A stretch of DNA of 64,000 bases from Arbacia lixula. Its lineage: Eukaryota; Echinodermata; Echinoidea; Arbacioida; Arbaciidae. Both the position numbers and the translations under genes were made by a program. The notes under the pieces are model-generated. The model made no database searches and was not told where the DNA came from. It was given only the letters and a program-made list of their open reading frames with translations. Positions 44,690 to 53,300 of this stretch are shown piece after piece. Positions within the stretch are counted from its first letter, which is position 1. Each line of letters begins with the position of its first letter. The DNA lies in NCBI GenBank assembly GCA_963669155.1, contig OZ022585.1, positions 24,529,511 to 24,593,510 on the forward strand. Direction: 5' to 3'.

Positions 44690-45081
44690 GTCGCCCAGCA
44701 AAACAAAAGCCTGTGAAACACACCAACGCGCAAATTCTGTGCTGGTAATTCAGTGCCCGTCAAGAAACATGCACCCGGTGATGCAGGGGTACTGGTCGCG
44801 TGATCTGAAAAACAGGACCCGCGTCTTATGACATCAAAGTAGTCATCGGATCGCGTACACTGAGATGGAAAAAACACGTGGACCATCTCCGTGGTTGTGC
44901 CGAAGATCAACGCGAGCGGACGACAACTCCAGAGGGGGAAAAGATCAAAGACGATGAAGATAGCGATCCCTGTGATGATTAGGCTATCGATGGAAGAGCA
45001 GACTGCAGTGAAAATGACGTAAAAACCACAAACAAACAATATCCAAAGCGTGTAACAAACCGACCAGCATTTTACGGTAAG
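44690..45081 (+). pseudogene. Old Ty3/gypsy integrase C-terminus (left part)
   Basis: One frame reads GPASYDIKVVIGSRTLRWKK, HVDHLRGCAEDQRERTTTPE, a stop, then SENDVKTTNKQYPKRVTNRP and AFYGK. GP-SY...G-R-x-R-HVDHLR is the GPY/F module at the end of gypsy integrases. The frame continues across the young retrotransposon inserted at 45082: after the second target copy it reads TNT and stops at 50377-50379. It is decayed (stop in the linker, lost frame at the 5' side). Confidence 0.72.
45077..45081. repeat. 5-bp target-site duplication GTAAG (left)
   Basis: Matches 50363-50367 and defines the outer edges of the LTR retrotransposon. Confidence 0.93.
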
Positions 45082-45192
45082 TAGAGGATATTAACACTTG
45101 ATTCATACCTGTCCTGCTCTCTACACAGAAGACTGTGAACATTGCTATTCCAGTGTCTGCTGATCCAGGCAAACAGTACAGGTACTCATTTA
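45082..45192 (+). repeat. 5' LTR, 111 bp
   Basis: Starts TAGAGGATATTAACAC and ends GGTACTCATTTA. Identical to 50252-50362 by direct reading. Unusually short for the group, with TA...TA rather than TG...CA ends. If the transcript begins at 45130 as the self-priming model predicts, U3 is only 48 bp, with an ATATTA box about 40 bp upstream. Confidence 0.95.
45130..45141 (+). promoter_or_regulatory. Proposed self-primer / transcript 5' end within the LTR
   Basis: AGACTGTGAACA is the exact reverse complement of the 12 bases that follow the LTR. In Tf1-type self-priming the first bases of the mRNA fold back on the primer site, which would place the cap site at or near 45130. Transcript start not shown by the sequence itself. 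Confidence 0.6.
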
Positions 45193-45204
45193 TGTTCACA
45201 GTCT
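45193..45204 (+). promoter_or_regulatory. Primer-binding site complementary to the element's own LTR
   Basis: TGTTCACAGTCT starts at the first base after the 5' LTR, the invariant position of a primer-binding site. It lacks the TGG start needed to pair with a tRNA CCA end, and it pairs 12/12 with 45130-45141. The stem ends exactly at the LTR border. Confidence 0.75.
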
Positions 45205-45227
45205 AGAGTATTGGCCTAGCTACCACC

Positions 45228-48200
45228 ATGCCTGTCGTATCCTGCCCAATCCCAGGCTGTGACTACACTACGCCAGAGCTTGATGCCTCTATTGTCGCTG
45301 CCCTACTCACAACCCACTGCACAATTCACGCCTCTGGGACAGGGCCAGCTGCCAAGATAGAGAAAGTCAAGAGGCCTACCATAGCTGCAGCTGGTACTAG
45401 TGAAGACTGGGCTTACTTTACCTCCTGATGGTCAGATTATGTGGAGGCCACAAGGGTCTCTGGCAAGGACAGGGTCATGCAACTCCTTGAATGCTGCGAG
45501 GAGCCCCTTCGCAAGGACCTTACAAGATCCTCTGGTGGCAGCCTCACCGTCAAGTCTGAAAAGGAGGTGCTCGCAGCCATCAAGAGACTCGCTGTACGTG
45601 AGGAAAACACCATGGTTGCTCGTGTGACACTGCATAACATGCGTCAGGATCGGGAAGAGACAATTCGCAGCTTCGGAGCCCGCTTACGAGGTCAAGCCGG
45701 CATCTGTAAATTTGTCATCAAGTGCCCAGGCTGCTCCATCGATGTCAACTACACTGATGAGATACTGCGAGATGCCCTGACCAGGGGAATCGCTGACCCC
45801 GAGATCCAGCTCGACCTTCTGGGAGACAAGAACCAGACCATGGATCTAGAAGATGTCTTCCAGTTCATCGAGGCAAAGGAAGCCGGGAAGCGTTCCGCAT
45901 CTTCTCTCCTTGACTCTCATGCCGTGAACTCTGCCAGCAGCTCATACCGGAGGACCAAGCACACGCACCTCAAGGAGAGCCAAGACTTGTGTGACTACTG
46001 TGGAAAAAAGGGACATGGTCGGGGTGCCCCTGCTCGCATCCGTAAGACACAGTGCGACGCATATGGACACAAATGCAGGCACTGTGACAGACTCCACCAC
46101 ATGGAGAATGTATGTCGCAGTAGGGACAATCCACGACGTCCCCCTCCAGCAAAACCAGAGGGACTTGAGAATGCAGCCTTTGACTCCTTTTGTTCTGTCC
46201 ATGGGTACGATCGCTCATGTGGTGGCCATGGCATTCCCCTTGATCATCATGTATATGATAGCCTTAACCAGGCATGGATCAGAAGGAAATCTTCCCCGCA
46301 ACCCTTCATAGATGTCACTGCTCAGGTTGTTCCTGATGACTATGAAGCTCTTGGGTTTCGCCTCTCCTCCCCCACGATGCCTCACTCTACCCCTGCTATG
46401 GCTGACACTGGGTGCCAGAGCTGCTTAGCCGGCATGAAGATCGTTCGACGTCTTGGATTACGTCAACAGGACCTCATCCCTGTCAGCATGAAAATGCGCA
46501 CTGCCACGAAGGGGGGTGTCAGGATTCTTGGGGCCGTTCCACTGTGTTTGTCTGGCAGGGCTCCCTCAGGTCATACAGTCAGGACGAAACAGCTGACTTA
46601 CGTCACCAACAGCTCTGATCAGCTCTTCCTCAGCCGGGAAGCGTGCGTTGGCTTGGGAATCATCTCGGACAGTTTTCCACAACTGGGTGTGACACAGGAG
46701 CGGCCCCTGATGGATACGACTGCAGCCCTTGAGGGGACCCCTGCTGGGAAAACCTGCCAATGCCCCAAGCGCCAAAGGCCACCGCCACCCCCTACCTCAC
46801 TGCCTTTCCCAGCGACTGAGGAAAATCGTGAAAAACTCCAGCGATACCTCCTGGACTATTACAAGAGCAGCACATTCAACACTTGTGAACACCAGCCCCT
46901 GCCCCTGATGGATGGCCCTCCTATGAAACTGATGGTGGATCCAGATGCAGAGCCTATCGCACATCACACCCCTGTGCCTGTCCCACTCCACTGGCGGGAT
47001 GCTGTCAAGGCCGGGTTGGATCACGATGTTCAGCTGGGCGTGCTTGAACCTGTCCCAGTTGGGGAGCCTGTAACCTGGTGCCACAGGATGGTCGTGTGTG
47101 CTAAGAAGACTGGCGAGCCAAGAAGGACTGTTGACTTCCAGGCCCTAAATGCACATGCCACCCGTGAGACACACCACACCCAATCTCCTTTCCTTCAAGC
47201 TCGGTCGGTTCCACATGGCAAGAAGAAGACTGTCTGTGATGCTTGGAACGGCTATCACAGTGTACCCATCTGCCAGGAAGACCGCCATCTCACAACTTTC
47301 ATAACGCCCTGGGGACGATACCGCTACAAGACCGCCCCGCAGGGGTACATTGCCTCTGGCGATGGCTACACCAGGCGATATGATGAGATTGTGTCTGCCA
47401 TCCCGTGCAAGACAAAATGTGTTGATGACGTCTTACTCTGGGCTGACACGTTAGCTGACAGCTTCTTCCAAGCTATCCAGTGGCTGGATGTCTGCGGCCG
47501 GAACGGGATCGTTCTCAACCCTAGCAAATTCACATTCGGTGCAGACGTCGTTGAATTTGCAGGCTTCGAAATCACTACTGACAGTGTCCGACCATGCCGG
47601 AAATACCTGCAGGCGATCCTCGACTTCCCGACACCCACTACCATCACTGATGTGCGATCATGGTTCGGGCTCGTCAACCAGGTGTCATATGCCTTCAGCA
47701 TGACAGAGAAGATGCTACCGTTTCGTCAGCTCCTGAAGCCTAGTACGCCATTCGTGTGGACCAACGCCCTCCAGCTTGCCTTTGAAGAGTCCAAGGCCTT
47801 CATCGCCAGCGAGATTGAAGATGGCGTACGGATCTTTGACCCCACCAAGCCTACCTGCCTGGCTACGGACTGGTCCAAGGATGGTATTGGTTTTTGGCTT
47901 TTGCAGAAACATTGCGATTGCAGTGGCACTACCCCTTTCTGCTGTGTCTCTGGTTGGAAAATAACTCTTGTAGGCAGTCGATTTACTCATGCTGCTGAAT
48001 CTCGCTATGCCCCAGTAGAAGGCGAGGCGCTTGCAGTTGCAGACGCCCTTGACAAGGCACGATACTTCGTCTTGGGGTGCGAGGATCTCATCGTTGCCGT
48101 CGACCACAAGCCACTACTCAAGATCTTTGGTGATAGGGCCTTGGAGGGAATCCCTAATCCCCGCTTGCGGAATCTTAAGGAGAAGACATTGCGATACAAG

Positions 48201-50045
48201 TTCAAGATGGTCCATGTCCCAGGCATCCGTCACCGTGCTACAGACTGCCTCTCTCGTCACCCAACAGGTGAGCCTGAGAAGTTACACCTCCCGGATGACG
48301 TAGCGGTGGTCGATATGGTACCACCATCGCTCCTCCACTCACCAACCCTCATGGGGGGCCTTCGAACCTTAGACCCGTCCACGGATGCTGTTGAAGTCTG
48401 CACACTCTCAACTGCCATGTGTGCTCTGGACTCTATGCACCTCAAGTCAGTTACATGGGACCGAGTACGTTCCGCCACCGCAAGTGATGACACCACGCAG
48501 GCACTCCTTGACCTCATTGAGTCTGGCCTGCCTGACCATCGCCTTGCGTTTCCCCAACCTCTTCGTGAATATTCCCAGTTTCGAGATGGCCTTTCTTCAG
48601 TTGATGGAGTTATCCTGTACAATGATCGTGTGCTTATTCCTCCTTCACTCAGGGATGAAGTCTTGAGCCACCTTCATGCTGCCCACCAGGGGATTACGTC
48701 AATGACCGCTCGTGCTGAAGCATCTGTCTTCTGGCCTGGCATCACTCCGGCGATTGCTGCTCTACGTGCGGGATGCACTCAGTGTAACCGTATAGCACCC
48801 TCCAATCCCAGTGCGCCACCAGTTCCACTGCTCTCGCCAGTCTACCCCTTCCAGTGTATCTGCGCGGACTACTTTCATTACAAAGGATGCAACTATTTGG
48901 TCATAGTGGACAGGTACTCGAACTGGCCAATCGTTGAACGGTCTGCGAATGGGGCGGATGGCCTAATCACGTGCCTACGTCGCACCTTTGCCACTTTCGG
49001 CATTCCTGATGAGCTGACCTCTGATGGTGGCCCTGAATTCACGGCAGTAGCTACACGCCATTTCCTCGCCAACTGGGGTATCCATCATCGCCTCGCCTCT
49101 GTTGCCTTTCCCCACAGCAACTGTCGAGCTAAGGTTGCTGTGAAGACCATTAAACGACTCATTATGGACAACACTAGCGCCACTGGATCCCTGGATACAG
49201 ACAACTTTCAGCGGGCCATACTTCAGTATCGCAATACCCCAGACAGGGACACGAAGCTCTCTCCAGCCATGTGCGTCTTTGGCCACCCGATCCAGGATTT
49301 CATCCCAATTGCCCCTGGCAAATACAAGCCACACAACACCTGGTGTGAAACCTTGCAGGCAAGAGAAGAGGCCCTTCGCAACCGTCACATGAAGGGGGCG
49401 GAACGCTGGTCGGAGCACACCAAACGGCTTCCACCTCTTGTTGTCGGCAATCATGTCCGCATCCAGAACCAAACCGGGCCACATCCTCTGAAATGGGACA
49501 AGACCGGCATCGTCATTGAAGTACGGCAATATGACCAATACATGGTCCGTGTAGATGGCTCCGGCCGGGTGACGCTGCGGAACAGGAAGTTTCTGAGACA
49601 ATACACCCCTGTCCATCGGCCCTTGCCGCCGAAGACGATGGAGGATGATGTTCGTGCCTCAAGTCGACCAGTGTACCCTTACTCTCCCAAGCATCCCACT
49701 ACCATGTCTGGAGGCCCACCATCACCCCCTTCACGTCCCGTTGAACCTACCAGACAGCGGCCCGAGCCCATTGCTGATGCCTTCCTACCACCAGTGGTTG
49801 ATATCGCTGATGACTCCCGCATATCGCCACCTTTTGTTGATACCCCGTCAACCGCGGTGGGTCGTGCTACTCCTGCTGTGGTTCCCTCTGCCGCTGCACC
49901 TTCAGCAGCTGCTCCTCCACCCCTCCCTCCTCCTCCTGAGGACAGCGTCATCGCTCCTGCTGCCGACCCAGCCCCTCCACCTAGGCGTTCTCTTCGTCGG
50001 GCCGGCAGACCTGCATGGCACTCAGATTATGACATGTCGCCCTAA
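45228..50045 (+). pseudogene. gag-pol polyprotein with two inactivating changes
   Basis: Start chosen at ATG 45228 (good context, CTACCACCATGC). One frame of 1,606 codons, broken by an in-frame TGA at codon 67 (45426-45428). Domains by codon: N-terminal C2H2-like finger (C6, C11, H30, H34); gag; two CCHC-type knuckles (about 255-268, the first degenerate, and 283-296); aspartic protease with ADTG (D393); RT with CVDD (D733, D734), where Cys takes the usual aromatic place; RNase H (ATDWS, D881); integrase with an HHCC finger (about 1148-1186) and catalytic D1214 and D1266. The third acidic position is Lys1302 (AAG at 49131), exactly 35 residues after D1266. Next come a GPY/F-like module ([12 protein letters not shown], about 1417) and a Pro-rich tail. 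The GTG at 45441 is not a start. Readthrough of the TGA is unlikely because it lies inside gag, not at a gag-pol border. Confidence 0.9.
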
Positions 50046-50242
50046 GTTAAGGACGGCATTTTCCTTGTGTTCTTGTTTTGGAGTTCCTGTTCGACGAGTT
50101 TTAGTGTTTTACAACGTTGCCTGTTATTTGGATATTGGACGTTTTCCTCGAGTTACCCGTTCTTTGGATATTTGACCTTTTTTTTTTGGACACAACTTTC
50201 ATCTTCGACACGCTTCGTTACTTCTCACCGTGCCAAAGACTT

Positions 50243-50251
50243 GGGGGGAGA
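50243..50251 (+). promoter_or_regulatory. Polypurine tract
   Basis: GGGGGGAGA directly before the 3' LTR, the plus-strand primer position in LTR retrotransposons. Confidence 0.88.
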
Positions 50252-50362
50252 TAGAGGATATTAACACTTGATTCATACCTGTCCTGCTCTCTACACAGAA
50301 GACTGTGAACATTGCTATTCCAGTGTCTGCTGATCCAGGCAAACAGTACAGGTACTCATTTA
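50252..50362 (+). repeat. 3' LTR, 111 bp
   Basis: Identical to the 5' LTR. Followed by the second GTAAG copy (50363-50367). Confidence 0.95.
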
Positions 50363-50379
50363 GTAAGACAAATACTTAA
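50363..50379 (+). pseudogene. Old gypsy integrase C-terminus (right part)
   Basis: Second GTAAG copy, then ACA AAT ACT TAA, continuing the frame interrupted at 45081 and ending it at 50377-50379. Confidence 0.6.
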
Positions 50380-53300
50380 CCTGTAAATAGAATTTGTAAT
50401 ATAATTTGCTTTTCTGCATATTTAAAATGATTAATTGAAGAATCCCTATAATTAATATCTAATGACTTGATGATCTTAAATGGTAAAGAGAGACAAAAAA
50501 GCATTGGAGAATGAAGAATTTTCGCAAAAACCTTTCAAAAATTATAAACTAGAATTATTGACTCTTTCCTGGTGATACAAAATAAAAAATGGCAGATGAT
50601 AAAGTAAGTTTAAGTTATGATGTAAATGTTTAAATTATTGTGTTTCTGGCATGTGTTATTGCTGCAATCAGCTTAGCCTTTAGCCAAGGCATTCGGCGCT
50701 GTTATATCCCAAAATGTGCCGAACGAGTCTGCATTCATAAGACTATCATGCGAGGAACAATTAAGTCTGTGTCACAATGTGAGTCTAACACCCCCCCCCC
50801 CCCCTCCCTCATAGCGGGTAAACACAATACACAACACAAACTCTGGAGCCAACTTTACGAATAATTAAGATACTCAGAGTTCCATAGCCAGGTGTGGGTA
50901 AGAGCGGGTAAACACAATAGAGGCTCTGGAGCCAATTTTACGAGTAATTAAGATACTCAGAGTTCCATAGCCAGGTGTGGGTAAGAGTGGCATTAGGTGA
51001 GGCAGTGTGTGGAAAAGTGGATGCAGATGACAGTAGGCTGTGCTAAGAGCAGGACGAGAGAGAGAGAGAGTGCTAGGGCGTGGAGGCACAGATTCACGGT
51101 TGGTTTAAAAACCATGCAGCGACGGGCATCGTGCAGGCTAGTTTCAACGCCGAATTCTCCGCACACCTCCCGGCCCGGAGAAGCCTCCTGACGCACCACA
51201 CCTCTGTAACAACTGTCATTTTGTCACCAGAACCGTACGTTACATTTTATTTGTATTCAAGTATTAGAATGCACAGGTACTATGGTGTGATTTGCTTTTA
51301 GGCAGGAGAAAATAGGCACTCAAGTATTGTATAGATGCATGTGTAACAATTAGAACATGGAGAGATTATCATTATTGATTTTGTAATTTTGACAACCAAA
51401 AAGGAAATATGGCAATGGCATGTTATCCATTATACATCCTTTAGTATCAATGTGGATGCCTAACATTTATCCATTATGTGGTATGAGAAAAGGAGGCAGG
51501 AAATAATTATTCAGCAAGGTTTTAAGTCAAACATGGAAGATACAAGTGTTATGATTAATTTTGTGACAGTGGGATAATATGATGTAAGGAATGAGAATTA
51601 ATTATTTCAAGAAGGTAAAAGCAAACAGCCTTATAAGATTTTATATGATCATGTGCAGAAAGCAAAAGTATTTGCATATTTGCAGTTCAAGAAATAAAGA
51701 TAATGTGTATAAGGTAATGCTTCTAAAGGAAATAATTACATGTATGAAGGTATATGAATGTATAACCTCTCAATACCAGTATTCTGACAGGTTCTTGATG
51801 TGGTGGAAATGTAAGTACAGTGTATAACATCAGTTATACATGATAACAGTAACTGTTATTCTGGAGTATGTAAAAATGATTGCAGATGAAATTGTTTTAA
51901 CAATGTTTTGTTTCTGGTATTCATTGCATATAGTATATATGATAGCAGGTAACGGTAATAACTGTGTGTGGCAGAAGACAATATTATTTGCAATGTTTAA
52001 ACTTAAATTCTCCCATAGGGACGAGCTGGGCTCACTTATAGGCCTGTCCACCCCATCACCTATGACGCATCCAGGCGGCAGTGACTTCCCTACGCGCCGA
52101 CGCGCATGATGACCTATATTGTTCTTCCATTTCCCGTTTCTCCTTTTCTTTCCCTTTCCATCACAAATTCCAGTTCCATTTTGTCATTTCCTAAATTGTA
52201 CCCACTTCCTCACTCATTCTAATATAGAGATTTTTTTCTTTTTTTCCCTTTTTTATCGTTCCTTCCGTTTTATCCTTCATCTTATCTTTATGTTCTTTCT
52301 GACCTTTTCCTTTCCATTTCCCTCTCTCCTTTTCTTCCTTTTCTCCCCTTTTCATTTCCTCTTTCACATTATTTATGATTTCATTTTCCCGGTGAGCTCC
52401 GCGGGGGCGGAGGAGCAGTCCGCCCCCTGCACCCTGACTGTTACGCCACTGCACTTTCACTATCTTTAGTATCATCATTATAGTGAACATAAGTATAACT
52501 ATTACATTTCTTAATTCTGTCATGACGAACATTGCAAAAGTACGAACAAATAAATATACAACTATTAAAAAGAAAGGAACAAGAATGTCGAGGAGCTACA
52601 TGTAATACAAATATTTTGTTTGTAAAAAAAAAAAGGACAGCGGAGAAAATGTCGGTGCAGCAATATTATCGGGGCAGCATCATTGTCGCATTTACTTCGT
52701 GAGTTATTGTCGATTATGCATATTTCGTTTTATCGAAAAAAAAAAAAACACGTCGAAAAGTAAGAGTGTTATAATATGTCGATTAGATTAGGAGATATAA
52801 TGGTAAATGCATGTGACACCGATTATAGGTCCGACTATTCCACAGATTTTCAAATGGGATATTTTTGACGTTAATTGCAAGGTTGATTCAAAGTATCACA
52901 GTAAAACTTTTACAAATTAAATCCCCGTTCAAAAACCGAGGGCCACGCAAGATTATATCTGTGGTCCGCCATAATTTAGACATCAAAACAAATACATGAA
53001 CAAACCTCCACAATTCACGCAACAGACGAGAAAAAAACGGGACGTGAGTGTTCACTTAGTGTACTTTAAAGCTTTTTATTAGTCACAAAACATTCAAAAT
53101 ATACCAAAAATGCATTGCATCGTCAATCAAACAGATTGTGCCTAAGATAAAACATTTCGAAAATACATCGTTCTGTATTCAAAATAACTTAACATGAAAC
53201 CTGGCCCTGCCGACAAGACAATCAATAGACCGAATTAAGTGAAAAGGAGAGATTCGCTAGCAAGCACAGCCAACTGCGTGCAGGCTGCGTGCAAGCTGCG

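Follow-up and report, generated by a model that had tools for sequence, protein, structure and literature searches.

Which RNA starts the reverse transcription of an LTR retrotransposon whose primer-binding site (PBS) does not begin with TGG? The question is raised by a 5.3-kb LTR element at 45082–50362 of the window, the whole 64,000-nucleotide stretch of Arbacia lixula DNA that was analysed, for which an earlier note had proposed priming by RNA of the element's own LTR. The LTR border that the note had fixed from the second LTR copy and from the GTAAG duplication stands, as the two 111-bp LTRs are identical and GTAAG is found at both ends (Table 1). The order of RT, RNase H and integrase together with a Ty3-like RT is that of Ty3/gypsy (Metaviridae), and judged from its sequence the element can be classified as a young Ty3/gypsy LTR retrotransposon. 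A search of solved structures with the coding frame gave 174 matches, the best two being RT/RNase H 4ol8 (E 1.5e-24) and Ty3 Gag-Pol 7q5b (E 2.5e-24). At the integrase C terminus (49251–50042), where a chromodomain would be expected, no Pfam match was obtained with E up to 0.05 or up to 10, and in a genome-wide chromodomain search none of the 30 matches belongs to a frame of more than 395 codons. Frames of 356–395 codons at several places (e.g., C17:17472172 and C11:17857989) contain a recurrent partial chromodomain, which may be part of another mobile family. The LTRs of this element, called A here (45082–45192), and of the related family B (L078) both have the termini TA...TA and not TG...CA, and AATAAA was seen in neither of them. 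At 45154 and its counterpart in the 3' LTR the window copy has a T where the other A copies compared have a C. To the left of the element lies a 33-nt inverted repeat (97%, 44514–44546/44651–44683) and to its right a 79-nt near-tandem repeat (91%, 50829–50990). Scans of the window with Rfam and ARAGORN returned 0 matches and 0 tRNA genes, respectively.

Table 1. Features of the element and its borders (positions in the window).
Feature	Position	Strand	Basis or remark
Left target-site duplication GTAAG	45077–45081	.	same 5 bases at 50363–50367
5' LTR, 111 bp, TAGAGG...ATTTA	45082–45192	+	100% identical to 50252–50362
TATTAAC, branch-point-like, 34 nt before the acceptor	45089–45095	+	putative function
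Pyrimidine-rich tract (15/20 nt) ending in CAG 45126–45128, putative 3' splice acceptor	45106–45128	+	host exons join exactly at 45129 in four sourced defective copies
AAGACTGTGAACA, putative 3' part of the self-primer; 45130–45141 pair with the PBS	45129–45141	+	complementarity, covariation, copied complement in defective insertions
Primer-binding site TGTTCACAGTCT, adjoins the LTR end	45193–45204	+	sequence, 12/12 complement
gag-pol frame, broken here by in-frame TGA 45426–45428	45228–50045	+	longer and uninterrupted in other copies
RVT_1 match, E 0.0022, under the curated cut-off	47130–47357	+	Pfam
RNase H match (RT_RNaseH), E 3.1e-15	47838–48140	+	Pfam
Integrase zinc-binding match (Integrase_H2C2), E 1.5e-10	48636–48800	+	Pfam
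Integrase core match (rve), E 3.1e-15	48846–49100	+	Pfam
Putative polypurine tract GGGGGGAGA, precedes the 3' LTR	50243–50251	+	role by position
3' LTR	50252–50362	+	identical to the 5' LTR
Right target-site duplication GTAAG	50363–50367	.	matches the left copy

The 12 bases directly behind the LTR do not start with TGG and are the exact reverse complement of 45130–45141, as the note had observed, and its opinion that a chance match is very unlikely agrees with our calculation, which gives ~6e-6 for a 12-nt complement to exactly that stretch anywhere in a 111-bp LTR. We scanned the 607-Mb host assembly with a 21-nt pattern spanning the border of LTR and site, allowing ≤3 mismatches, and obtained 88 places compared to 25 for the reversed control. 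The 43 exact places and the 9 with one mismatch form our set of 52 A-type LTR/PBS junctions, all of which were examined. Primer arm and site are complementary at 12/12 positions in 50 of them, and the remaining two (L033 and L090) show one uncompensated mismatch each. L033 (C19:3506268–3507190) carries the site of the subfamily A' described below behind an A-type primer arm, which could reflect a point mutation or the primer of a co-packaged RNA. From the 36 weaker hits 15 loci were examined besides four full-length copies of family B. Twelve loci outside A and B among the hits with three mismatches (L106, L108–L113, L121–L125) were considered as additional self-priming families and rejected, their anchored complement being only 3–5 nt long. 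The stability of the predicted leader fold is unexceptional, with 17/200 shuffles being as stable for A and 53/200 for family B, and a scan of viral contigs with the pattern led to 3 hits, none of which was confirmed.

A comparison of copies, which the note had suggested, shows that both 12-mers co-vary. The RT search, in which 150 of 636 candidates were scored, yielded close copies and fragments, four rows at 69–70% that represent family B, and a remainder at ≤38%; frames of 1611–1612 codons occur in 16 of its rows, three of these being one duplicated insertion. Family B consists of 4 full-length copies with LTRs of 172–173 bp (TAGAGGA...CTCATTTA) and four different 5-bp duplications, and its primer AGATTGTCAACA and site TGTTGACAATCA form 11 pairs, two of which are changed on both sides with respect to A. 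In subfamily A' (AGACTGTGATCA with TGATCACAGTCT), found in L087–L089 and L115, one pair is changed on both sides. A' represents two independent insertions, as L087–L089 have their flanks in common and are one insertion that was duplicated, and counting these three C7 copies as independent cases was therefore rejected. With six arm types compared, pairing is seen in 69 of 72 cells and 3 pairs show a change on both sides; pairs were counted on the arms alone, and a MAFFT alignment of the whole leader misplaced the B primer. The covariation score was matched by 1/500 shuffles and the number of doubly changed pairs alone by 94/500, with shuffles that ignore kinship in both cases, and six slid control structures gave no double change. 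Families C, D and E, gypsy elements of the same genome (RT 31–35% identical) and the only other families whose LTR ends were examined, possess the site TTGGTGACCCCG, which starts with TGG and presumably fits tRNA-Trp, and an LTR complement of ≤6 nt.

The strongest evidence for self-priming is independent of this covariation and comes from defective insertions that carry host exons. The leader AGA follows the site in 43 of the 52 A-type junctions and is different in 9, belonging to 8 insertions as L013 holds two. Together with the B-type insertions L107 and L114 they make up a set of ten defective insertions, and matching 5-bp flanks were found at 10/10 defective insertions, including L006, L044 and L107. 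In all eight A-type cases a T, the complement of A45129, follows the 12-nt site, and after this T comes foreign DNA before the element resumes further downstream. A host source was searched for four of the ten fillers (L044, L115, L013 and L042, the other six being those of L004, L008, L019, L035, L107 and L114) and found at C1:26276469 (90%) for L044, at C3:26933182 (97%) and C3:26930557 (90%) for L115, at C2:20391832 (99%) for L013 and at C1:24767454 (99%) for L042. In all four the host match begins one base after the T, and the junctions of the sources read GAG/gtaagaa, AAG/gtgagta, TAG/gtaagag and ATG/gtaaata in host sense (exon/intron). All four fillers are antisense host exons that start exactly at the splice donor and are joined to the complement of AAGACTGTGAACA. 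Since they begin at exon ends next to the T, each of the four is the complement of an RNA of the type 'host exon–AAGACTGTGAACA'. In antisense the L115 filler codes for the beginning of APC11 (E 5e-16), and this ANAPC11 filler joins two exons that are 2.5 kb apart with the intron being absent; at the boundary of exon 1 and exon 2 one G misfits a clean GT-AG intron in the assembly.

A break after TGTTGACAAT, where a splice at CAG would place it, is a possible reading of both B insertions (L107 and L114). The bases that directly follow the site in L004 and L107 are also compatible with the CAG of the LTR itself. L107 (C2:2888821–2889992) is palindromic and consists of LTR, site, an arm of ~55 bp, loop, arm, site and inverted LTR with GATAG on both sides, perhaps resulting from snap-back of strong-stop DNA. 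L013 (C19:575527–576634) contains two units of LTR and site 185 bp apart that have their first filler bases in common, a tandem duplication within a defective insertion. A second deletion class (L012, L037 and L047) retains the first 152–344 bp of the element and continues further downstream without a filler. Among the 100 of 109 LTR matches listed, the four donor loci have no A LTR closer than 0.4 Mb; the exon-trapping insertions may be lost, polymorphic or outside the listed matches, or the exons may have been joined in trans.

From the complementarity, the covariation in B and A' and the primer copies in defective insertions we consider it very probable that the element primes its own reverse transcription by LTR-derived RNA, including RNAs that bear host exons, which agrees with the self-priming postulated in the note. 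The LTR-derived RNA would fold back and pair by AGACTGTGAACA with TGTTCACAGTCT directly behind the LTR. It would then be cut after ...GAACA (45141), presumably by the RNase H of the element as in Tf1, and the resulting RNA piece would act as minus-strand primer; the cut, the enzyme and the order of the steps are our reconstruction. In LTR elements the plus-strand strong-stop DNA includes a copy of part of the minus-strand primer, and the same would happen here. If a host 5' exon was spliced at the acceptor 45128/45129, the copy would continue into this exon, and the antisense exon would end up behind the site in defective insertions. Self-priming by an RNA whose 5' part was a host exon joined by splicing at 45129, and which was cut after 45141, would thus be expected to give DNA in the order LTR–TGTTCACAGTCTT–antisense host exon, and copying of the RNA primer 'host exon–AAGACTGTGAACA' is the best explanation for the fillers.

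The inverted repeat might be a mere RNA hairpin involved in packaging or translation, with a host tRNA or tRNA fragment priming at or near the LTR end, and hairpins do exist close to primer sites for which priming is unproven, as in the fungal GalEa according to the accessible part of its description (PMC5445492). We regard this as very improbable, as the LTR end is not followed by TGG, as the repeat adjoins the LTR end both in A and in B even though the primer sits 51 and 82–83 nt away from it, and as antisense host exons joined to the complement of AAGACTGTGAACA, which follow the site in the four sourced insertions, could not stem from a tRNA primer. A tRNA is unable to carry the ANAPC11 exon and thus the fillers oppose tRNA priming. 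Still less credible is an origin of the fillers from an antisense element in a host gene that was spliced to a host exon without any copying of a primer. The host exon is indeed antisense to the element, but the antisense strand of the intact leader, ...CTCTAG-ACTGTGAACA, would give exon–ACTGTGAACA, whereas the copies read exon–AAGACTGTGAACA, a string that is present in the LTR and absent at that place of the leader.

Self-priming by the LTR-derived RNA leaves the question of how this RNA obtains its 5' end, and here our results differ from the note, which had placed a transcript start near 45130. In the four sourced cases among the ten defective insertions the primer RNA extended beyond 45129 on its 5' side into a host exon joined by splicing, and from these joins the CAG at 45126–45128 appears to be a splice acceptor that was used in the RNAs behind these insertions. 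The LTR reads CCTGTCCTGCTCTCTACACAG/AAGACTGTGAACA in A and TTCTTTTCACCTCCTGCAATGCAG/ATTGTCAACA in B, with 15 pyrimidines in the 20 nt preceding CAG in both, and TATTAAC resembles the branch-point consensus. A transcript start at A45127, which had been read from an extra TCT behind the site, was discarded because the element contributes just the first T of these bases, the others being the exon end. It is conceivable, though we hold it only tentatively, that the 47-nt 'U3' is a splice-acceptor module (TATTAAC, pyrimidine tract and CAG) without a promoter and that the element is normally carried along by host genes. The LTR would receive a host 5' exon by splicing, either in cis, from insertions absent from the assembly, or in trans, and the primer of each cycle would have a host exon at its 5' end. 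In that case splicing and not the start of transcription would set the edge of the self-primer. We see roughly even chances for an RNA that normally starts at a promoter of the element around 45126–45130 (with a C/A initiator), with host-exon primers as rare accidents that defective copies over-represent; this view and the best explanation disagree solely about where the RNA comes from. In 43/52 junctions the site is followed by the leader, so that most insertions have no trace of a host exon, and defective copies are a biased sample. As defective products may favour chimeric primers, the normal RNA is not readable from them. Evidence against an own promoter comes from the 47 nt before 45129, which resemble a splice-acceptor module in A, with B also having 15/20 pyrimidines before CAG, and no TATA box was seen by eye ~30 nt upstream in A.

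Like Tf1 and Tf2 from Schizosaccharomyces pombe and the Tf1/sushi chromoviruses, the element has an LTR-derived RNA segment, predicted to lie in the 5' region of the RNA, that is complementary to a PBS adjoining the LTR. As far as the accessible text of the respective reports goes, the first 11 bases pair in Tf1 with the cut between bases 11 and 12 (PMC7175516), compared to 11–12 paired bases here, and self-priming is a common feature of Tf1/sushi chromoviruses involving a 'pretzel' RNA of three duplexes (PMC10085805). Only the primer:PBS duplex and neither the second nor the third is evident here in single-sequence folds, which are blind to pseudoknots. Unlike in Tf1/sushi, a chromodomain was not detected, the defective insertions point to primers with spliced host exons and the LTR termini are TA...TA. 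The likeness to Tf1 and sushi drawn in the note is well supported for the mechanism and does not extend to the chromodomain: the element works like Tf1/sushi, but the domain that marks this group was not detected in it. The TGG at the LTR end that characterizes tRNA-primed LTR retrotransposons is missing in TGTTCACAGTCT and present in families C, D and E, which are RT relatives in the same host but have no LTR complement to their site.

Self-priming has also been predicted for Tcn1 (a chromovirus) and TAR/Houba/Osr-1 (Ty1/copia), plant elements of other lineages (PMC6317226), and for SM-Tcn1 another study found no evidence for it (PMC2864245). Bivalve TRIMs (PMC6934838) and the fungal GalEa share the absence of a tRNA-type site, and hairpins have been discussed for them, but in the accessible sections they differ in showing no LTR complement and no established mechanism. 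According to the portions available to us, LTR models of Metaviridae have TG...CA except for most of the Zam clade, with hairpin priming in some chromoviruses (PMC3601003), and Cer1 combines SL1 trans-splicing with a tRNA-type site (PMC3315495). Tj1 (PMC4600332) and further literature available in part (PMC5006619, PMC8556966, PMC4340606, PMC4558846) belong to the same context. Among the literature matches listed, with most subscription journals being outside our reach, self-priming was not recognised in any animal gypsy element without chromodomain, and primer copies with host exons were not recognised either.

In the literature found, as far as its accessible parts show, Tf1/sushi elements with a chromodomain and a few copia lineages of plants are the ones to which self-priming has been linked, and here it would concern a gypsy element in which no chromodomain was detected. 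As defective insertions retain the complement of the priming RNA, the identity of the primer, usually a question for the bench, becomes readable from the assembly. The same scan, which looks at the DNA that follows the primer site of defective copies, is applicable to other LTR families, and the host-exon fillers reveal a route by which such elements may capture pieces of host genes.
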